From an uncultured Kiritimatiellota bacterium (GTDB lineage: Bacteria > Verrucomicrobiota > Kiritimatiellia > RFP12 > DVOR01), in the NCBI GenBank assembly GCA_944389945.1, contig CALXOF010000008.1, forward strand, positions 42,526 through 106,525: a stretch of 64,000 nucleotides of DNA, read 5' to 3'. Below the pieces are notes generated by a model. That model did no database searches, was not told the DNA's origin, and saw only the letters and a program-made list of their open reading frames with translations. This document shows positions 1,617-64,000 of the stretch, piece after piece. The translations under genes were made by a program, and so were the position numbers. Within the stretch, counting starts at the first letter, position 1. Each line of letters begins with the position of its first letter.

Positions 1617-1765
1617 CCCCAAAAACACCCCTAGAACCTCCCTTCGCGGACCCTTAAGGGTTTCGGGTCGGACCACTATAGGGTCTCGACCTCGACCACT
1701 ATAGGGATTGACCTCGGACCACTATAGGGTCTCAAAACGTCCCCTTACGGACCTCCACAGAAGGG
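1617..1765 (-). repeat. 23-bp-period palindrome cassette, copy 1
   Basis: Four palindromic cores at 1653 (CTTAAG), 1676, 1699 and 1722 (CTATAG), each exactly 23 bp from the next and each embedded in GACC-core-GGTC-like arms. The orientation is inverted relative to the copies near 42462 and 53995: read on the minus strand the order is three CTATAG sites followed by the CTTAAG site, as in those copies. Flanks also match (CTGTGGAGG on one side, CGCGAAGGGAG on the other, minus strand). The rest of the 1520-2246 gap is occupied by this cassette and the hairpin composite that follows. Confidence 0.85.
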
Positions 1766-25928: not shown

Positions 25929-28448
25929 ATGTCACGCAGAAAGAAAGTTGTCGTCAATGAGCCGCAGGGTGATGCTGCGGACACGTATCTGCATGCCGGC
26001 CATGAGCGCCCCATCCTGCCGGCGGCCAATGAGACCAGCGATGTCCACGAGACCGAGCCACCCGCAGACTATATCATCGACCCGCACAACATTCCGCGTC
26101 TGTGGTGGTATCAAAAGGGCGAGGACGTGGTGGAGGTGCCGACCTTCACTATCCACCAACACGAGGCTGTGAACCCGATGCGCATCCTCAAGGCCACCTT
26201 CGAGGATGACCGGCAGGGCTATATCCAAGAGGAGATGTTTGAGCAGACGGAGGCCGACCGGCGTCGTCTCCGCACGGAAGAGGTCTATTCCTACAATCAC
26301 ACTATGCAGTGGACGAACCGCATGATTGCAGGCGATTCCCTGCTGGTGATGAACGCCCTGCTCCAACATGAGCGACTGGCCGGGCAGGTGCAGTGCATCT
26401 ACATGGATCCGCCCTACGGCATCAAGTTCGGCTCCAACTTCATGCCCACCATCCACAAACGCGACGTGAAGGATGGCAAGGATGAGGACATGACCGCCGA
26501 ACCTGGCATGGTCACGGCCTTCCGCGACACCTGGAAATGGGGCATCCACAGTTATCTCACCTATCTCCGCGACCGCTTCATCCTTATGCGTGAGCTACTT
26601 GCGTCCAGCGGTTCTATCTTCGTCCAAATCTCGATGGAGAATGTCCACCGCGTGCGTCTTCTCCTCGACGAGGTCTTCGGTCCCGAGAACTGCGTCAGCA
26701 TGATTACTTACGCCACCACAGGTGGTAATGAGTCTGGGATATTAGACCGTGCAGGAGATTATATTTTGTGGTATGCCAAAGATAAGAATAGTGTGAAGTA
26801 TCACGAACTTTTCCAAGTGCGGGAGGGAATAGCTGAGTATTCAAGAATTGAATTCCCTGATGGAACACGTATGTCAATCGCCGAATGGGAAGCAGAGAAT
26901 GGAAAGGAGTTTGACTACGATAATCCTCCGAAAGGAGTTAAGTTTTATCGGCTAGATCCGCTAGTGTCGAATAGACCTGCAGGCGAAGGAGATGTCAAGG
27001 TGTTTATGTTTAAAGGACGCGAGTATCGTCCAGGAAACGGAACGTTTAAGACAACGCAACGCGGGTTGGAGCGACTTGCTGCTGCGGGAAGAATCGCCTG
27101 TGGTAAAAAGCAAATCCATTATGTGCGATATTTTGATGATTTTCCAGTCAAGTCATATAAGAACGTTTGGACAGATTGTCGCGGCGCAAGCGATAAGGTC
27201 TACGTAGTTCAGACCTCCAAGAAGGTGATTGAGCGTTGCATTCTGATGACGACGGAGCCGGGGGATTTGGTGCTAGATCCGACGTGTGGGAGCGGGACGA
27301 CGGCGGTGGTCGCGGAAGAGTGGGGGAGACGTTGGATCACAATCGACACGAGCCGGGTGGCGTTGGCGCTGGCGAAGCGTCGGCTCATCACGCAGGTCTA
27401 TGATTGGTATAAGTTGGCGGACGAGAAACGCGGCATTGACGGCGGGTTGGTCTACAAGACGGTGCCGCACGTGATGCTGGGCGACATCGCCAACGGCGTC
27501 CCCTCGAAGGAAGAGACGCTGTGGGACAGGCCGCTTGTTGAGAAGGGGAAGGTTCGGGTGACGGGGCCCTTCACGGTGGAGGCATTGCCCGAGCCGGTGA
27601 TTGAACCGCTCGAAGAGAAGCCCGAGGAGGGGATGGCCGCAGGGAAGAGTTTGGAAGAGTGGGTGGCCGAACTGCGGACGGCGGGGATTCAGTCGGCGTC
27701 CGGGAAGGAGCGGTTGCGCTTCAGTGCGCTGGAGGTCTCGGGGACGTACACGTGGTTCCACGCGCAGGGCGTGACGACGGACGGGACGGAGGCATTGGTG
27801 TGCATGGGGAGCGCGTCGGCGCCGTTGAGTCCGACCATCGTGCGCAATGCGCTCGATGAGGCCGCCGACCTCTATCCCCGGCCCGGGCTGATTGTCTTCG
27901 CGGCCTTTCAGTTCACGGCCGAGGCGGAGGCCCTCATCGCGGGGTGCAAGGTGAAGGACGCGCAGGTCCTAGCCGTGCAGATGAACACCGACCTGCAGAT
28001 GACCGACCTGCTGAAGCGCCAAGCCCGCAACCAGAGCTTCATCTTGGTGGGCCAGCCAGACGTGCAACTGAAGATGGGGGTGGACGGACGGCTGACGGTG
28101 GAGGTGTTGGGCTTCGACTATTACGACCCCGTGAAACAGGCCATGGTCACCGGCAGTCCGAAGAACATCGCCATGTGGATGGTGGACGGCAACTACGACG
28201 GGCGGTGCGTGAACCCGCAACAGTGTTTCTTCCCGGGCACGGACGTCTGGAAGAAGTTGGAGACGACGCTGAAAGGGACCATCGTGCCCGTGCGGTTGAA
28301 GGCCTACCAGGGGACAAAGAGTCTGCCCTTCAAGCCCGGCGAGAACCTGAAGGTGGCGGTGAAGATCATCGACGACAAGGGCTTCGAGAGCATCCGCGTC
28401 TTTCCGCTGACGGCGGACGGTCGGCCTCGCGGGGAGGCGGCGCGATGA
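25929..28448 (+). CDS. type III-like restriction-modification DNA methyltransferase (Mod)
   Basis: Beta-class amino-methyltransferase (N6-adenine or N4-cytosine type) of 839 residues. Catalytic motif IV DPPY at 160-163 precedes the AdoMet motif I DPTCGSG at 450-456, the order of type III Mod enzymes. Start 25929 is chosen for GGAGG 8 bases upstream and the Mod-like start MSRRKKVVV; an in-frame start at 25770 adds residues without homology. Between the two motifs, bases about 26700-27240 (residues about 258-437) are visibly AT-richer than the rest, as expected of an exchanged target-recognition domain. An extra C-terminal region of about 250 residues (FKPGENLKVAVKIIDDKGF) is typical of the Mod partners of SNF2/DEAD-type Res proteins. 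Overlaps the Res gene by 4 bases. Confidence 0.88.
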   Translation: MSRRKKVVVNEPQGDAADTYLHAGHERPILPAANETSDVHETEPPADYIIDPHNIPRLWWYQKGEDVVEVPTFTIHQHEAVNPMRILKATFEDDRQGYIQEEMFEQTEADRRRLRTEEVYSYNHTMQWTNRMIAGDSLLVMNALLQHERLAGQVQCIYMDPPYGIKFGSNFMPTIHKRDVKDGKDEDMTAEPGMVTAFRDTWKWGIHSYLTYLRDRFILMRELLASSGSIFVQISMENVHRVRLLLDEVFGPENCVSMITYATTGGNESGILDRAGDYILWYAKDKNSVKYHELFQVREGIAEYSRIEFPDGTRMSIAEWEAENGKEFDYDNPPKGVKFYRLDPLVSNRPAGEGDVKVFMFKGREYRPGNGTFKTTQRGLERLAAAGRIACGKKQIHYVRYFDDFPVKSYKNVWTDCRGASDKVYVVQTSKKVIERCILMTTEPGDLVLDPTCGSGTTAVVAEEWGRRWITIDTSRVALALAKRRLITQVYDWYKLADEKRGIDGGLVYKTVPHVMLGDIANGVPSKEETLWDRPLVEKGKVRVTGPFTVEALPEPVIEPLEEKPEEGMAAGKSLEEWVAELRTAGIQSASGKERLRFSALEVSGTYTWFHAQGVTTDGTEALVCMGSASAPLSPTIVRNALDEAADLYPRPGLIVFAAFQFTAEAEALIAGCKVKDAQVLAVQMNTDLQMTDLLKRQARNQSFILVGQPDVQLKMGVDGRLTVEVLGFDYYDPVKQAMVTGSPKNIAMWMVDGNYDGRCVNPQQCFFPGTDVWKKLETTLKGTIVPVRLKAYQGTKSLPFKPGENLKVAVKIIDDKGFESIRVFPLTADGRPRGEAAR

Positions 28449-31177
28449 GCCTGATTCTGAACAGTCCCTACGCGGAGCCGACACGCCACTGGGTGCACGC
28501 GCCCGGGACGGTCTCGCTGACGGATGTCGAGGGACGGCGCGCGCCGGGTTACACCAAGTTCAGCACCAAGAGCCGGGGCGACGGCGAGTTTGTGCCGTTG
28601 GGCGCGGTGGAGGTCATCCGCGGGAAGGTGAAGGCGTGGCGCGAGGCGGGGTGGCCAGGGGTGACGCCCGTCACGCGGCGGTTGCTCGAACGGTGGAACG
28701 GGGTGGGGGACGAGGAAGGGGTGATGGAACCGAGACCCTTCTTCTGTCAGCTGGAGGCCATCGAGACGTTGATTTGGATGACGGAAGGCGCAGAGGCCAA
28801 TCGTCAGGGGCTGTGGGGCGAGTTTGACGACCAATTGCGGGGCGATGGAGGCCCCTTCGAGCGGGTCTGCACCAAGCTCTGCACGGGCGGCGGCAAAACC
28901 AAGGTCATGGCCATGCTCATCGCGTGGCACGCGTGCAACAAGGCGAGTTATCCGCAGGATAAGCGCTTCTGCCGGGACTTCTTGATTGTGGCGCCGAACC
29001 TGACCGTACGCGACCGTCTGGCCGGGCTCGACCCCGCGGATGGGGGCGAGTATGGCGGCTATCTGGTGCCGGACGAGTTGGCCGGCGCGCTGTCTCAGGC
29101 CCACGTGCGTATCCTCAACTGGCAAGCCATGCAGTGGGAGGACGAGAAGAAGCTGAGCAAGAAGCGGAGCGTGGACAAGCGCGGGCCGTTGAGCGACAAG
29201 GCGTATGCTAAGCAGGTCTTGGGGCCGGAGTTGGCCAAGGCCCCGCGTATCCTGGTGCTCAACGACGAGGCCCATCACGCTTGGCGTCTGCCGCCCACGG
29301 CCAAGGCCGGCGACTACAAGGGCGTGGGCGAGGAGAAGGACGAGCACACCGTCTGGGTGGGCGGGCTTGACCGCATCCACCGTGTGATTCCCATCCTGCG
29401 GTGCCACGACTTCTCGGCCACGCCCTTCATCCCCTCGGGCAAGATGAGCAAGGAGGACTTCCTCTTCGGGTGGATTGTCAGCGACTTCGGGTTGAACGAC
29501 GGCATCGAGGCCGGGTTGGTCAAGACCCCGCGGATGCCCTACAACGCCGCAGGGGCCATCAATCCCGAGACCGGTCTGCCCGAACTCTATGACCTCTATG
29601 AGGCCAAGGGCATCAAAGAGGCCATCGCCGAGGATGTCGATGTCGCCACGCCCCTGCCGCCGACCCTCGCTAACGCCTATTCCCTGCTGGCGGAGGATTG
29701 GCGCAGAACGGCGGACCAGTGGGCGGAGCGCCATGTGGCCACGCCGCCGGTGCTCATCAGCGTGGTGAACAACACGGTGACGGCGGAACGCATCGAGCGA
29801 CACTTTCGGTCGGGCGGCAACGCGACCTTGGGGCAAGCCCAGGAATTGTGCGACGAGGCGCGGTTGTTGCGTATCGATTCCAAGGTGATCGAGAAGGCCG
29901 GCGCGGCGGGTGATGCCCTGCGCGAGCGCGTCGCCACCGTGGGCAAGGTCGGCAAGCCGGGCGCGGACGTGACGAACCTTATCTCCGTGGCCATGCTCTC
30001 GGAGGGGTGGGACGCGCGTACCGTGACGCACATCCTGGGTTTGCGCGCCTTCACCAGCCAGTTGCTCTGCGAGCAGGTCATCGGGCGCGGGTTGCGTCGC
30101 GTGAGCTACGACGTGGACGAGGAGACGGGCTTGCTCCAGCCGGAGTACGTGCAGGTCTTCGGCGTGCCCTTCCGCTTTCTGCCCTCCGAAGGGGACACCT
30201 CGGGCGAACCGCCGAAGCCGACCTATCCCATCGCCGTGGCACCGGGGCGCGAGGACGCCGAAATCACTTGGCCCAACATCGTGCGCATCGACACGAACCA
30301 GGTACACGAGCTGTCGATTGAGGACATCCCGGAGCTGACGCTCGCGCCGAACCTGACCCTCTCCGCACAGTTGGCGCAGACGCTCGGCGAATGGATGAAG
30401 GTGGGGCAGGACGACCTCTATACGCTTGATATTGCCCAGGCACCGCGGTTGCAGACCATCCTGTTTTCGATGGCGAAGGCGTTGCTGGAGAGCGCGCCAC
30501 TCGAGGAAATTCGCAAGAAGATGTCCACGCCGCGGCTCTTCGCCGCGTTGGTGCGGTTGGCCGAGGACTTCATTGCCTCGGAGAAGTGCCACTGGGAGGA
30601 CAATCTCTTCTGGCAGAAGGTCGACCTCAAGACCCCGGAAGAGCGGTTGGCCTATGCCTATCAGATGGGCTCGGTGGTGCAGCATCTGCTCAAGCATTTG
30701 GCGTCGAAGGATAATCTGGTGCTCTCCATCGTGCGGGACAGTCGTCTGCCGACGCTCTCCACTGCGAAGATGCGCACTTGGCACACCACCAAGGAACCCA
30801 AACTCACCGGACCGAAGAGCCAAATTGGCGCGGCGGTCTATGACAGTGCGTGGGAACAGAGCGTGGCCGAGACCTTGGCGGGAATGGATGCCGTGCAGGC
30901 CTACGTCCGCAACGACCGTCATGTGGGGCTGCGCGTCCGCTATGTGTCGCAGGGGCTCACGCGGCTCTATATCCCCGACTTCATTGTGCGACTGACGACC
31001 GGCGAGACGGTGGTGCTGGAGGTCAAGGGGCAGGACGACCGCACGGCCAAGGATAAGCACGAGGCATTGGAACGTTGGTGCAAGGCCGTCACCGCGCTCC
31101 ATGACTTCGGTCCCTGGCGTGCCGCCCGCGTGATGTCCGCCAACGCGATTGCTCTCCATGAAGCCTTGGGCGTGTGA
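28445..31177 (+). CDS. type III-like restriction enzyme subunit, DEAD/DEAH helicase with C-terminal nuclease (Res)
   Basis: 910-residue helicase-nuclease. Walker A CTGGGKT at 146-152, Walker B/DEAH at D274 (LNDEAHHAW), a helicase C-terminal domain with SEGWDARTVTHI and QVIGRGLRR, and a C-terminal PD-(D/E)xK-type nuclease signature (IPDFIVRL then VVLEVKGQ, about 843-861). Start 28445 overlaps the Mod stop (ATGA), so the pair is co-translated. Together they would translocate on and cut DNA lacking the Mod methyl mark. The frame also stays open further left to 27944, but that part antiparallels no known domain and overlaps mod. Confidence 0.88.
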   Translation: MSLILNSPYAEPTRHWVHAPGTVSLTDVEGRRAPGYTKFSTKSRGDGEFVPLGAVEVIRGKVKAWREAGWPGVTPVTRRLLERWNGVGDEEGVMEPRPFFCQLEAIETLIWMTEGAEANRQGLWGEFDDQLRGDGGPFERVCTKLCTGGGKTKVMAMLIAWHACNKASYPQDKRFCRDFLIVAPNLTVRDRLAGLDPADGGEYGGYLVPDELAGALSQAHVRILNWQAMQWEDEKKLSKKRSVDKRGPLSDKAYAKQVLGPELAKAPRILVLNDEAHHAWRLPPTAKAGDYKGVGEEKDEHTVWVGGLDRIHRVIPILRCHDFSATPFIPSGKMSKEDFLFGWIVSDFGLNDGIEAGLVKTPRMPYNAAGAINPETGLPELYDLYEAKGIKEAIAEDVDVATPLPPTLANAYSLLAEDWRRTADQWAERHVATPPVLISVVNNTVTAERIERHFRSGGNATLGQAQELCDEARLLRIDSKVIEKAGAAGDALRERVATVGKVGKPGADVTNLISVAMLSEGWDARTVTHILGLRAFTSQLLCEQVIGRGLRRVSYDVDEETGLLQPEYVQVFGVPFRFLPSEGDTSGEPPKPTYPIAVAPGREDAEITWPNIVRIDTNQVHELSIEDIPELTLAPNLTLSAQLAQTLGEWMKVGQDDLYTLDIAQAPRLQTILFSMAKALLESAPLEEIRKKMSTPRLFAALVRLAEDFIASEKCHWEDNLFWQKVDLKTPEERLAYAYQMGSVVQHLLKHLASKDNLVLSIVRDSRLPTLSTAKMRTWHTTKEPKLTGPKSQIGAAVYDSAWEQSVAETLAGMDAVQAYVRNDRHVGLRVRYVSQGLTRLYIPDFIVRLTTGETVVLEVKGQDDRTAKDKHEALERWCKAVTALHDFGPWRAARVMSANAIALHEALGV

Positions 31178-31489: not shown

Positions 31490-31558
31490 AAGAGTTGTGT
31501 CTTTGCGGTCCCTCTCTTTTCCCCGGACCCTATAGGGTCTCGCCCTGGACCACTATAG

Positions 31559-33024
31559 AAGGACTTTCACACGTTTTTGAGGATTTGTTGTAGTTTTCAA
31601 TGAGATAGTAAAAATGGTTCATTTTTGGGTATAGTAATAGGAAAGAAAGGTGGCACCCAGAATGACCCAGGACCTCGATTGGAAAAAGTCCGCGCAGGTG
31701 ATGAACGCGGCATGGGATGGATTTTGTGTGAAAATTTCTCACATGTTTCATAAGCCTGAAGCTGAGTTTATTGCGAGATTACTCAAAGGTGTTATGATTC
31801 AAAAGGATGTAATTATCTCGAAGTGCGCGAAGGTATGCCGAAAAGAAGGCACTTCGATAGCCACGTTTTGCAATATAGCGACTAAGCATTTGAAAAAACG
31901 AACTATTGAACAGAATGCACATCAAACACTGTTGCAAATGATGGCGCAGACAGTTCACAAAGACACCTTAATCATTGCAGATGAGAGTGATTTAGCCAAA
32001 CCATACGCGCACTATTTTGAGACAGAGGAGGAACGTGGGAATTCCCGTTCGATGGAATATGTGGACAGGATCCGTGATGGCTCAACAGGGGAAATAACAA
32101 ATGGTTATTCCCTCTTTCTTGTGACGGCCTGTGAGCTCGGGAAACATGAGCCCCGTCCTCTTCTCTTACGTGCTTGGTCGACCAAGGCCGACGATTATCA
32201 AGGTGAAACAAACGAGGTTCTAGACGGGTTTCGGCGAGTTGCCGATGCTCTCGGAGACCGTGGGATCTATGTTTACGACCGAGGCGGAGATCGAAGAGCC
32301 TACTTTGACTTCTTTATTGAGAGAAACTTACGCTTTGTTATCCGTCTCATTGGCGAACGTAATCTGATTATCCACGGAGGGAAATTCATCAAATCAGTGA
32401 TACTTGCCAGAAGCCTTGAAACTCCTGTCAAGATAAACGTCGACTACGAAAAAAAGGGGAAACGCTACCAGAAAACGCTTTCCCTTGGACATATCCCTGT
32501 CCGACTTCCAGGTTCAGACAAAGAACTAGAACTTGTTGTTGTCAAAGGGTTAGGAATGAAACCGTTGATGCTTCTAACCTCCGATCTCGGCGATGGTCTC
32601 CAAGATTACCTCGTGCGAATCTTACACACCTACATGGCCCGATGGCGCATTGAGGAGTGCTTCCGATACATCAAAGAACGTTATCATCTTGAAAACCTCC
32701 GCGTTCTGGCCTACGAGAGTATTAAAAGTTTTGTCGCTGTCTTCGCTTTCATATTTACATTTATATCACATGAGATTAAAGAGATAGGAGAAGGAGTGAT
32801 CAAAATCATCATCCTAAGTGCGCAGCACACCGGTCCTTTGCCATCTTTCTCTTATTACATTCTTGCTGACGGTATTTCAGAACTTTTCGGGTGTCAACGT
32901 TTCTGGCCTTGCCTTTACAAACCCCCAAAAGAGAATCCGGCCCAAACCAAGTTCCCTTTCTTTACCTAACTTGGCTCCCCATTCTTACCTTCCAATCACA
33001 CGTTAAAAACGTGTGAAAGTCCTT
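31559..33024 (+). mobile_element. IS4-type insertion sequence, complete, 1466 bp
   Basis: Perfect 20-bp terminal inverted repeats (left 31559-31578 starting AAGGACTTTCACACG, right 33005-33024) flanked by a 7-bp target duplication ACTATAG (31552-31558 and 33025-33031). The target is the core of the 23-bp-period palindrome cassette. One transposase gene fills it. A partial related copy with the same left end begins at 63929. Confidence 0.93.
31662..32969 (+). CDS. IS4-family DDE transposase
   Basis: 435-residue cut-and-paste transposase. Acidic residues fit the DDE triad: D107 in IADESD, D206 in YDRGGDR and E331 in the IS4 signature Y324-(2)-R327-(3)-E331-(6)-K338 (YMARWRIEECFRYIK). ATG 31662 preferred over an in-frame GTG at 31650; GAAAGG lies upstream and TATAGT (31630-31635) is a likely -10. 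GC content is clearly lower than in neighbouring genes, consistent with recent arrival. No frameshift or stop seen, so it may be active. Confidence 0.93.
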   Translation: MTQDLDWKKSAQVMNAAWDGFCVKISHMFHKPEAEFIARLLKGVMIQKDVIISKCAKVCRKEGTSIATFCNIATKHLKKRTIEQNAHQTLLQMMAQTVHKDTLIIADESDLAKPYAHYFETEEERGNSRSMEYVDRIRDGSTGEITNGYSLFLVTACELGKHEPRPLLLRAWSTKADDYQGETNEVLDGFRRVADALGDRGIYVYDRGGDRRAYFDFFIERNLRFVIRLIGERNLIIHGGKFIKSVILARSLETPVKINVDYEKKGKRYQKTLSLGHIPVRLPGSDKELELVVVKGLGMKPLMLLTSDLGDGLQDYLVRILHTYMARWRIEECFRYIKERYHLENLRVLAYESIKSFVAVFAFIFTFISHEIKEIGEGVIKIIILSAQHTGPLPSFSYYILADGISELFGCQRFWPCLYKPPKENPAQTKFPFFT

Positions 33025-33153
33025 ACTATAGGGGTCGACCATGGACCCTTATAGGGTCTCACCACGGACCACTATAGTGGTTGAGCACGGACCCTTATAG
33101 GGTCTCTGGATGGATAATCAAGGGGGATGTGGGAACTGTGCAGGGCGAGAGAC

Positions 33154-42430: not shown

Positions 42431-42562
42431 TTCTCCTGTGGGGGGCTTACTTCGCGAGACCCTATAGTGGTCCGAGGTCAACCACTATAGTGGTCGGAGG
42501 TGAGACCCTATAGTGGTCCGGGGCGAAACCCTTAAGGGTCCGCGAGAGCCCCTTTTGGGGGT
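42431..42562 (+). repeat. 23-bp-period palindrome cassette, copy 2
   Basis: Cores CTATAG at 42462, 42485 and 42508 and CTTAAG at 42531, exactly 23 bp apart. Middle site is the perfect 14-bp palindrome ACCACTATAGTGGT. Flanked by CTCCTGTGGGGGG on the left and GCCCCttttGGGGG on the right. Lies between two leftward operons. Confidence 0.9.
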
Positions 42563-53970: not shown

Positions 53971-54096
53971 TCCTCCTGAGGGGGCGCGGAGACCCTATAG
54001 TGGTCCGAGGTCAACCACTATAGTGGTCGAGGGTGAGACCCTATAGTGGTCGGGGTCGAAACCCTTAAGGGTCCGCGAAGACCCCTTTTAGGGAGT
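53971..54096 (+). repeat. 23-bp-period palindrome cassette, copy 3
   Basis: Cores CTATAG at 53995, 54018 and 54041 and CTTAAG at 54064, exactly 23 bp apart and in the same orientation as the 42462 copy. The two copies are nearly identical over about 90 bases, including GGTCCGCG and CCCCTTTT after the last core. Left flank CCTCCTGAGGGGG. Confidence 0.9.
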
Positions 54097-54246: not shown

Positions 54247-54276
54247 ATCGTCATGAAAGCCGTTGGAGGATTCGCG

Positions 54277-56163
54277 ATGAAGCGTTTGTTGACGTTTGCG
54301 TGCGCGCTTGGGATGGCCTCGTTGCTCCAAGCCGAGTATCTGTTGCCCGAAACGATCTCCCTGACCCCGGATGGGAAGGCGTTAATCATTGGCGAGAAGA
54401 GGGCCGGCAAGGTCTCCATTCGTGATTTCTCCGGTAAGGAGTTGGCTTCGTATGATGCCGACATCGCGCCGTGGTGGACCTTTGGGCTGGGGGACAACCC
54501 GACCCTGCAGGTGACGGGCGCGACCATGTCGCCGGACGGCTCGGATCTCTTTTATACCGCGGACAACGGCAACGAAGGACGCCTCTTCAATAAGGCCGGG
54601 AAGTCTGTGGTGACGGGTAACTGCCCGATGACGCCGACGGTCTCGCCGGACGGGAAGTATGTCTACGTCTGCAACCGCTTTGATAACAATGTGCAGAAGT
54701 ACGACGCCAAGACGCTGAAGCTTCTGGCGACGGCGCCGGCTCTGCGCGAGGCGAACGGTTGCGCGCTGGGCAAGGATGGCAAGCTCCTCTTCGTCATCAA
54801 CCTGCTTCCGACCGATGCGGCCGAGCCGGTGGGCTATGTGGCCGCGAAGGTTACGGTGGTGGACACCGCGACCTTCAAGGTGATTGATAACATCCATCTG
54901 CCCGATGGCTCGACAGGTGTGCGCGCCGTCACGGCTTCGCCCGATGGCAAGTTCATCTATCTGACGCACACGCAGGCGCGCTATCAGCTTCCCACCACGC
55001 AGTTGGAGCGCGGCTGGATGAACACCGCGGCCCTCTCGGTCTTTAATGGCGAGACCGGCAAGTATGTGAACACCGTGTTGCTCGATGACGTGGACCTAGG
55101 CGCGGCCAACCCTTGGGGCGTCAGCGTCTCCCCCGACGGCAAATGGCTGGTGGTGGCCCATGCGGGTTCGCGTGATGTGAATGTCATCGACCGCGCCAAG
55201 ATGCATGAGCGCCTGGACAAGGCCGCCGCCGGCATCAAGGTGACCGAGGTGACGCTCTCCGCCGCTGACGTGCACAACGACCTCTCCTTCCTCTCCGGCA
55301 TCCGCTTCCGCGTCTCGGTGACGCCCGATGGCCCGCGCGGCATCGTTGCCACCAACGACAAGGCCTACGTGGTGTGTTACTTCGCGGACGCGCTGGTGGA
55401 AATCCCCTTCACCGACCGCGTGGTCAAGCCCACGACCATCCCTCTGAATGGGGAGCTGATTGACCTCTCGAAGGACCCCGTCCTGCGCGGCGAGATGCTC
55501 TTCAATGACGGCACCAAGTGCTTCCAGCTGTGGCAGAGCTGCGCTAGCTGTCACCCCGACGGCCGCGTGGACGGACTGAACTGGGACTTGATGAACGACG
55601 GCATCGGCAATCCCAAGCAGACCAAGAGCCTCTACCTCTCCCGTTGGACGCCGCCCACGATGATCACCGGCATCCGCAAGGATATGTTCCACTGCAACCG
55701 CGCGGGCTTCCACCACATCCAGTTCTATGATGCCGTGGAAGAGGACGCCAAGTGCGTCGATGCTTACGTGATGGCCATGAAGCCTGTCGTCTCGCCCTAC
55801 GCCCGCGAGGAGAACAAGGCGGCCATCGAGCGTGGCAAGGCCATCTTCATGGACCCCAACAAGGCCGACTGCGCCAGCTGCCACATGCCTGACCACTACT
55901 TCACCGCCGCGGTCGACCCCGAGGACGGCTCGAAGTCCAAGATCTACGACCTTGGCCTGGGTACGGGCGAGGAATTGGGGCAGACCTTCGATGTGCCGAC
56001 GCTCAATGAGGTGTGGCGTACCGCTCCTTACCTTTATGACGGCCGCGCGGCCTCCATGCTCGCCGTCCTTAAGGATTGGAACAAGGCCGACCAGCACGGT
56101 GTCACCAATGATCTCACCGAGCAGGAACTCAAGGACCTGGAGCTCTACATTCTCTCTCTGTGA
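54277..56163 (+). CDS. exported beta-propeller di-haem cytochrome c
   Basis: 628-residue periplasmic protein. Start 54277 has GGAGGA 6 bases upstream and gives the signal MKRLLTFACALGMASLLQA. Residues about 25-380 form a YncE-like beta-propeller with repeated SPDGKY/V blades. The C-terminal part holds two haem c sites, CASCH at 422-426 and CASCH at 532-536, in a layout like MauG/cytochrome c peroxidase. It may transfer electrons to or from a periplasmic substrate; the partner is unknown. Followed 18 bases later by a RidA-like gene and then the QueH fusion, possibly one operon. Confidence 0.85.
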   Translation: MKRLLTFACALGMASLLQAEYLLPETISLTPDGKALIIGEKRAGKVSIRDFSGKELASYDADIAPWWTFGLGDNPTLQVTGATMSPDGSDLFYTADNGNEGRLFNKAGKSVVTGNCPMTPTVSPDGKYVYVCNRFDNNVQKYDAKTLKLLATAPALREANGCALGKDGKLLFVINLLPTDAAEPVGYVAAKVTVVDTATFKVIDNIHLPDGSTGVRAVTASPDGKFIYLTHTQARYQLPTTQLERGWMNTAALSVFNGETGKYVNTVLLDDVDLGAANPWGVSVSPDGKWLVVAHAGSRDVNVIDRAKMHERLDKAAAGIKVTEVTLSAADVHNDLSFLSGIRFRVSVTPDGPRGIVATNDKAYVVCYFADALVEIPFTDRVVKPTTIPLNGELIDLSKDPVLRGEMLFNDGTKCFQLWQSCASCHPDGRVDGLNWDLMNDGIGNPKQTKSLYLSRWTPPTMITGIRKDMFHCNRAGFHHIQFYDAVEEDAKCVDAYVMAMKPVVSPYAREENKAAIERGKAIFMDPNKADCASCHMPDHYFTAAVDPEDGSKSKIYDLGLGTGEELGQTFDVPTLNEVWRTAPYLYDGRAASMLAVLKDWNKADQHGVTNDLTEQELKDLELYILSL

Positions 56164-63780: not shown

Positions 63781-63913
63781 TCTATCCATGCCGTGGCGAA
63801 ATGGCAAAAAACGTTCGGCCGTGTCTAGGGGTGTTGCGTGAGAATGGGGGACTGCGGTGCGCTCTCCCCATCGGAGGCATTATGCCTGCCAGCCTTCACG
63901 CCAAAAGGGTCGT

Positions 63914-63928
63914 GCTGAGACCCTATAA
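63914..63928 (+). repeat. remnant of the palindrome cassette, copy 5, cut by an insertion sequence
   Basis: GCTGAGACCCTATAA stops at the insertion sequence end at 63929. It matches the GAGACCCTATAG core of the cassette, with A for G at the junction. Degenerate AAGGGTC just upstream may be a further unit. Confidence 0.6.
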
Positions 63929-64000
63929 AAGGACTTTCACACGTTTTTGAGGATTTAGTCGAGTTTTCAATGAGATAGTTGCAAAGGCTCATTTTTGGGT
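63929..64000 (+). mobile_element. left end of a second IS4-type insertion sequence, cut by window edge
   Basis: Terminal inverted repeat AAGGACTTTCACACG and 72 bases that match the left end of the 31559 element with about 9 mismatches. The transposase start would lie just beyond the window. It is a related, not identical, copy. Confidence 0.85.

Follow-up and report, generated by a model that had tools for sequence, protein, structure and literature searches.

Evenly spaced arrays of phased palindromes in the genomes of an uncultured Kiritimatiellota bacterium and some of its congeners

Introduction

Dispersed repeats in bacterial genomes are usually regarded as scattered parasites or as loose protein sites. 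The iterons of plasmid origins, such as those of RK2, are direct repeats at about 22-23 bp. The parS, matS, SlmA, and Noc sites are single palindromic sites that are spread over the chromosome in an uneven and region-specific manner. The sopC centromere of the F plasmid reportedly consists of 43-bp repeats, of which a single one is said to suffice. REP sequences are reportedly targeted by insertion sequences (IS), and the middle box of the BOX elements of Streptococcus is ~45 bp long.

The arrays of short palindromes described here share with the parS, matS, SlmA, and Noc sites the occurrence of palindromes across a chromosome, but they are phased rows and are evenly spaced. They resemble the plasmid centromeres of sopC and pSM19035 in being tandem sites in fixed phase, which in those centromeres serve a dimeric protein. 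On the side of the arrays, the likeness to sopC consists of tandem palindromes, a fixed phase of 23 bp, and commonly four units; however, sopC and parS are centromeres of plasmids, whereas the arrays occur chromosome-wide. By analogy, the arrays may work like sopC-type arrays spread over a chromosome. The parS of pSM19035 is made of heptads and has full activity with at least four contiguous repeats (PMC9499535).

Other likenesses are to dispersed intergenic repeats. As with REP/BIME elements, the palindromic elements are intergenic and species-specific, number in the tens to hundreds in a genome, and often form regular clusters (PMC2817692). As with BOX elements, copies are on the order of 100 (125 in one pneumococcal genome), the structure appears to be modular, with end sequences that flank a repeated middle, and there is an excess between convergent genes as well as hairpin folding (PMC3049150). 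However, the middle module of the arrays is a 23-bp palindrome unit with spacers that are free in one congener, and their even spacing has no counterpart in the available parts of the REP and BOX descriptions (PMC2817692; PMC3049150). We found no account of such arrays in Kiritimatiellota in the literature within our reach, most subscription journals lying outside it.

Palindrome Arrays of the Window

The window, which is the whole stretch of 64,000 nucleotides analyzed (C8:42526-106525), belongs to a genome of 2.33 Mb in 34 contigs that is 92% complete (G000). Among the matches listed, its nearest named relatives are metagenome-assembled Kiritimatiellota (CALXMT, CALXMW). All five occurrences of the palindrome cassette that the initial annotation had reported in the window were re-read and found in place. 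Array 1 (1629..1751, minus strand, with the orientation taken from unit polarity) consists of four palindromes and terminal stretches of ~24 bp; its cores are CTTAAG at 1653 and CTATAG at 1676, 1699, and 1722, in steps of 23 bp. Array 3 (42438..42560 with its terminal stretches, plus strand) has CTATAG at 42462, 42485, and 42508 and CTTAAG at 42531. Array 4 (53971..54093, plus strand) has CTATAG at 53995, 54018, and 54041 and CTTAAG at 54064, and the orthologous place in the close relative G005 also has an array.

Array 2, on the minus strand, is interrupted inside one of its units by an IS of the IS4 family (31559..33024, plus strand). The left part (31506..31558) has CTATAG cores at 31530 and 31553 and ends in the 7-bp duplication ACTATAG (31552-31558). 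The right part (33025..33124) begins with the duplicated ACTATAG (33025-33031) and has the cores CTATAG at 33026, CTTATAG at 33048, CTATAG at 33072, and CTTATAG at 33094. Array 5 (63899..63928, plus strand, oriented by eye) is a remnant with one cut unit, CTATAA at 63923, and lies before a second copy of the IS (63929..64000, plus strand) that is cut by the window end. Apart from the cores placed at 33049 and 33095, which are at 33048 and 33094, and CTATAG at 33026, which had been missed, the cores listed at first were in place. An exact 23-bp period holds generally, but the IS-split array has two 7-bp cores and some steps differ. CTTAAG, described as standing at the end, is indeed terminal; it is the first or the last core as set by the array orientation.

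The IS has terminal inverted repeats AAGGACTTTCACACG and encodes an IS4-family transposase (31650-32969) with family matches below the curated cut-offs. The 7-bp duplication ACTATAG that flanks the copy in array 2 is part of an array unit. Searched for in G000 (844.5 kb) and G005 (396 kb), the IS end was found twice; each copy belongs to G000 and lies within an array unit, and one has the ACTATAG duplication. This element possibly has a target preference for array palindromes. The initial annotation had considered that the pattern might be merely the end of a mobile element, and no mobile element ending in arrays was found. Array 1 had no match among plasmids and phages, and neither did two array patterns among viral contigs. 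Directly left of array 2 is a gene for a restriction endonuclease of the BPTD_3080 family (27944-31177, above the NCBIfam cut-off). Another gene (54253-56163) is similar to hydrazine synthase beta/gamma models, below the cut-off, and its predicted product would join a beta-propeller to a di-haem cytochrome c peroxidase-like protein.

Array Anatomy and Phase

The fixed period read from the window holds genome-wide, with 370 pairs of CTWWAG-N17-CTWWAG in the 2.33 Mb of G000 and none of the reversed pattern. In 844.5 kb of this genome, starts of CTATAG or CTTAAG are 23 bp apart in 124 cases and 46 bp apart in 80, and any other lag from 8 to 43 bp has at most nine. The distance between unit centres is 23.0 bp in 130 of 179 neighbouring pairs and 22-22.5 bp in 33 more. 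Arrays mostly have three to five units and are ~125 bp long. Counted by exact cores, four units are the commonest (29 of 57; range 2-7), and arrays of G005 reach eight. The 56 arrays found in 844.5 kb extrapolate to roughly 150 per genome. This number alone speaks against iterons, a parallel drawn in the initial annotation that gained no support; the arrays do not mark one origin but are chromosome-wide, and their units are palindromic.

The units are ACCA-CTATAG-TGGT or GACC-CTATAG-GGTC, and most arrays have a polarity given by GAGACC-CTATAG-TGGTC units. In both G000 and G005, the repeated middle is mostly flanked by inverted copies of a single module. This CCYAAAAGGGCCTTTCKGGACC-like module is degenerate and conserved to ~24 bp beyond the outer core (43 arrays with 86 ends), and at several ends it is replaced by other palindromic sequence. 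In the 24 G000 arrays whose outer cores span exactly 75 bp, the mean information content is 1.85 bits for cores, 1.69 for arms, 1.19 for inner spacers, and 0.90 for ends. Spacers and ends in G000 are common to different copies, like those of copied elements. With regard to terminal inverted repeats of the MITE type, the ~24-bp end module is inverted but degenerate (86 ends), and the two ends of one element match no better than those of different elements.

Arrays in Related Genomes

We ran a sequence-only array model (R1) on 17 genomes of the genus and obtained 225 matches in G000, 184 in G005, 111 in G015, 106 in G008, 28 in G004, and 2 in G001, the last two from one degenerate four-unit row. 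The other 11 genomes had no match, among them G013, whose arrays differ in sequence. Arrays are thus seen in six of the 17 genomes, with a degenerate row in a seventh; they are either dispensable or have cores in the other genomes that the searches missed. When core length and spacing were left free in the pattern, 15 of 191 genomes matched, several of them by one probably chance match. Self-similarity within 200 kb of G007 revealed nothing array-like, in a sample so small that about ten arrays could escape it. A de novo palindrome-train scan had an over-strict stem rule, missed nearly all known arrays, and is uninformative on this genome.

As in G000, rows in the congeners are phased, at a step of 23 or 22 bp. 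The more distant congener G013 has ten loci with rows of ACCCTATAGGGT, a 12-bp palindrome with RRY/RYY arms, at 23 bp. Eight of the ten loci have exactly four perfect units, and mutated further units are found at two loci. The free pattern gave 28 matches in this genome, compared with 27 for the exact core at fixed 23 bp. The spacers were compared over 37 exact units and 27 spacers (11 bp), obtained by an exact search that favours perfect palindromes. When three related loci are excluded, likeness between loci in the inner five spacer bases is 0.417, against 0.395 +/- 0.012 after column shuffling; when they are included, it is 0.424 against 0.394 +/- 0.011. Apart from these few related loci, spacers resemble one another between loci hardly more than shuffled ones do and appear unrelated. 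One array of this genome (C10:240-318) is 6.4 kb from parB (C10:6706).

G008 and G015 have CCCTAAGGG/CCCTTAGGG-type cores with a step of ~22 bp. Several loci of G008 (L162, L178, L183, and L130) have a common one-sided tail, CGGAAA..AT..G.ACTTATTT.GAAT, adjoining the array. This tail is absent beside the G000 arrays that were read, as if each lineage had amplified its own array-bearing element. In another family, G080 has a row of six units with centre distances of 22.5, 22, 22, 22, and 22 bp and five different spacers. The CCCTAGAGGG units at 22 bp in G096, also of another family (L212), have identical spacers and are therefore a plain tandem repeat. Across these species, palindromes and phase are retained, whereas spacers and core family change.

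Gene Context and Orientation

Genes were called by our own hexamer-score script, with a coding fraction of 0.70-0.87 for the sequence analysed from G000 and G005. The arrays had been described as always intergenic, and none of the 70 arrays in these parts of the two genomes overlaps a called gene by >30 bp. Of the 69 gaps with an array, 26 are convergent, compared with 33 of the 301 gaps of at least 100 bp that lack one (Fisher 5.5e-7). Divergent gaps account for 10 of the 69 and 61 of the 301, a depletion that is not significant (p 0.31). Arrays have a median distance of 154 bp from the 3′ ends of genes and a larger one, 308 bp, from the 5′ ends. In tandem gaps, polarity is with the gene direction in 17 cases and against it in 12; such independence suits a function of DNA rather than RNA.

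The proximity to 3′ ends would be expected of transcribed hairpins that function at the RNA level, be it as terminators, as attenuators, or at mRNA ends, and long folds are predicted (mean z of -6.1 against mononucleotide shuffles for 41 elements). However, self-complementarity is expected from the palindromes, and the left and right ends of the same 41 elements do not covary, with 5383 of 20,000 permutations being as good. The independence from gene direction also argues against such hairpins, as do the lack of a terminator-like site in array 1, which was the one array scanned, and the lack of an Rfam match within the window. With hairpins predicted but ends that do not covary, we do not claim an RNA function and consider it highly improbable.

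We also find it very doubtful that the arrays are operators of a regulon, at which a repressor or activator likely binds and controls the neighbouring genes. Palindromes in phase do look operator-like, but the neighbours in G013 look unrelated by eye (EF-G-, gyrase A-, aldolase-, and ABC-transporter-like), and the preference for convergent gaps and for the 3′ rather than 5′ side of genes does not fit operators either.

A family of 1.6-kb genes is present in G000 (C1:16864, 66749, 89084, and 171955) and G005 (G5C1:154892, 156696, and 213890). Some members have an array just beyond one end, and seven arrays share flanks apparently derived from the 3′ ends of these genes. The product is presumably AAA-ATPase-like with a PD-(D/E)XK-like end, as judged by eye.

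Turnover Between Close Relatives

G000 and G005 have a mean identity of 93% over 125 kb of blocks. Four G000 arrays lie within blocks that are collinear with G005 or in the gaps between them; two are shared and two are absent in G005. The block that contains one of the two shared arrays is short and may have arisen by duplication. The G005 gaps that lack the array differ throughout, so that no clean empty site was seen. Seven of ten synteny breaks have an array, either within the gap or at the end of the block, compared with two of ten collinear joints. Of the seven breaks with an array, one consists of 33 kb that did not align and another adjoins the end of a contig. Recombination between dispersed repeats would give such breaks at arrays, and misassembly is possible.

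Spacing Along the Chromosome

The even spacing of the arrays is new here. In these counts the IS-split array was taken as one array; both of its halves were left out of the covariation and target-site duplication scans. The 56 arrays of G000 form 49 intervals with a median of 13.6 kb (shortest 4.0 kb) and a CV of 0.49, against a null mean of 0.94 for arrays placed into gaps of the same genome (0 of 10,000 placements as even). The CV is 0.50 in the discovery contigs C1, C2, and C8 (3 of 10,000). By the same statistic, it is 0.48 (2 of 10,000) in a replicate from the previously unexamined contigs C3-C6, sampled as the first 100 kb of each. Of nine control repeat motifs of G000, six could be tested (one with just 6 intervals) and gave CVs of 0.71-1.09, none unusually even; for the other three, the clusters were too few (5, 6, and 2). 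A second repeat family in G000, with 9-bp tandem GTCCTATAG / GGACNTATA units beside GCGGCGAAGCCGCCG-like hairpins (C1:38907, 40439, 42453, 53655, 107226, and 114756), is not evenly spaced (27 clusters, CV 0.88).

In 396 kb of G005, the CV of 0.60 is not significant (625 of 10,000). In the whole genome of G005, at least 84 loci gave 43 intervals with a median of 21.8 kb and a CV of 0.56 (3 of 20,000) among the matches listed. Contigs with at least three arrays gave 0.54 against 0.85 (3 of 20,000), also among the matches listed, and one array pair is 0.8 kb apart. These loci were the model matches listed (of 184) and three arrays from the sequence, merged at 300 bp. In G015, 71 loci drawn from 111 model matches, weak ones included, gave 30 intervals with a median of 19.6 kb (shortest 9.4 kb) and a CV of 0.36 against 0.58 (20 of 20,000). 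The null for these two genomes placed interior arrays uniformly between the first and the last of each contig, irrespective of gene positions. Several arrays are at contig ends in G005 and G015, and assembly bias could conceivably make some contribution to the even spacing.

The arrays avoid one another over several kilobases. A hard exclusion of 6-8 kb in the placement yields similar CVs for G000, the largest gap in G000 is no smaller than by chance, and large gaps are not significantly depleted; what these figures establish is thus mutual avoidance, and a ruler does not follow from them by itself. A chromosome-wide role and target immunity are each compatible with even spacing in three genomes, one of which, G015, has other cores.

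Target immunity of the Mu/Tn7 type would even out the spacing if the arrays were a small non-autonomous element, MITE- or BOX-like, with palindromes that are likely transposase sites. The cis-immunity of Mu acts most strongly within ~5 kb and weakens with distance over the range of 5-25 kb (PMC7350765). As immunity predicts, copies in G000, G005, and G015 keep kilobases apart, and a soft exclusion of 6-8 kb reproduces the G000 spacing without any function. A mobile element would also account for the inverted end module, which many copies in G000 and G005 share and in which conservation stops ~24 bp outside the outer cores, for the copy number that varies widely between species, and for the replacement of one family by another. 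However, no target-site duplication exceeded permuted pairs at any tested offset (k = 4-8; 69 elements), which sets the arrays apart from MITEs. The two collinear G005 gaps without an array gave no clean empty site, and the arrays of G013 are mostly not copies of one another. No RAYT-type transposase was found in the six array genomes (G000, G005, G008, G015, G004, and G013), all without a match to PF01797 (Y1_Tnp); among the 17 genus genomes only G016 and G012 match this family, and 5 of 14 controls were positive. PF09299 (Mu-transpos_C) matched none of the 17 genus genomes and none of the 14 control genomes, making the control a silent one. On balance, we consider a mobile element, the main alternative, somewhat unlikely. 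If immunity is the cause, the arrays would amount to a record, on the scale of a genome, of the target immunity of a very small element.

It is quite unlikely that the arrays are ordinary intergenic repeats of REP/BIME or BOX type that have no role, spread by recombination, and are kept where they are least harmful. Such repeats would also be intergenic, enriched in convergent gaps, hit by IS, and often found at synteny breaks. However, the arrays are even in three genomes and the six testable ordinary families of G000 are not, and the phase is exact in G013 despite unrelated spacers. Unlike REP/BIME elements, the arrays repeat in tandem at a strict phase of 22-23 bp, in G013 with free spacers; no Y1 transposase (RAYT) was found in their genomes, and their units show by eye no GTAG-type head in the conserved columns. 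Because neither the RAYT and head of REPs nor the target duplication of MITEs was found, we file the arrays under neither.

Possible Binding of a Host Protein

We propose, with a probability of roughly 45%, that a single host DNA-binding protein occupies each array cooperatively, as a row of dimers, and would anchor or organise the chromosome. Each palindrome would take one putative dimer, two helical turns would put neighbouring dimers in contact, and four sites would give one stable complex. Such complexes, every 14-22 kb, may each serve one chromosome stretch, with close duplicates being lost or never fixed and gaps being refilled. The site preference of the protein would shift between species (CTATAG, ACCCTATAGGGT, and CCCTTAGGG) and the arrays would shift along, in part through copying of the array and its ends to new places. 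A constant step and palindrome with free spacers are what a row of touching dimers would need, and neither an RNA nor a copied element would need them. As far as sequence can tell, the data fit rows of bound dimers, and RAYT-driven REPs or RNA hairpins appear to fit less well. The idea of a repeated site for one dimeric protein, put forward in the initial annotation, is favoured by the comparison with G013 and the 22-bp relatives and is in this sense partly supported. The nucleoid-organising role suggested there appears to gain support from the even spacing.

Several observations count against binding by a host protein. The patchy presence of pneumococcal repeats is taken as an argument against chromosome packaging (PMC3049150), and by the same argument the limited distribution of the arrays within the genus counts against a chromosome role. 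The preference for convergent gaps, which is shared with BOX repeats, and the turnover of core family and position also count against it. So do the spacers and ends shared among G000 copies, the reproduction of the spacing by exclusion, and, in G005, the non-significant result for 396 kb and the pair at 0.8 kb.

A more far-reaching version is possible and is offered tentatively, namely, that a fast-evolving dimeric protein on four-palindrome arrays every 14-22 kb would act as a chromosome-wide ruler that sets domain size, with each species rewriting cores and positions and retaining phase and spacing. If true, the constancy of phase, unit number, and distance under changing sequence would be a natural experiment on the distance between anchor points. 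Whether a host protein or immunity is the cause, an array would be a ready bait for the putative DNA-binding protein.

No binding protein was found for the arrays, ParB being the one candidate examined. ParB is unlikely as the array binder; G000 has its own pair of parS-like sites, which differ from the arrays. Its parB is on C9, and two 16-bp palindromes TGTTCCACGTGGAACA, which we take to match the canonical parS pattern, are 1.2 kb apart at C6:53203 and 54434. One array (C6:54304) starts ~130 bp from one of these parS-like sites.
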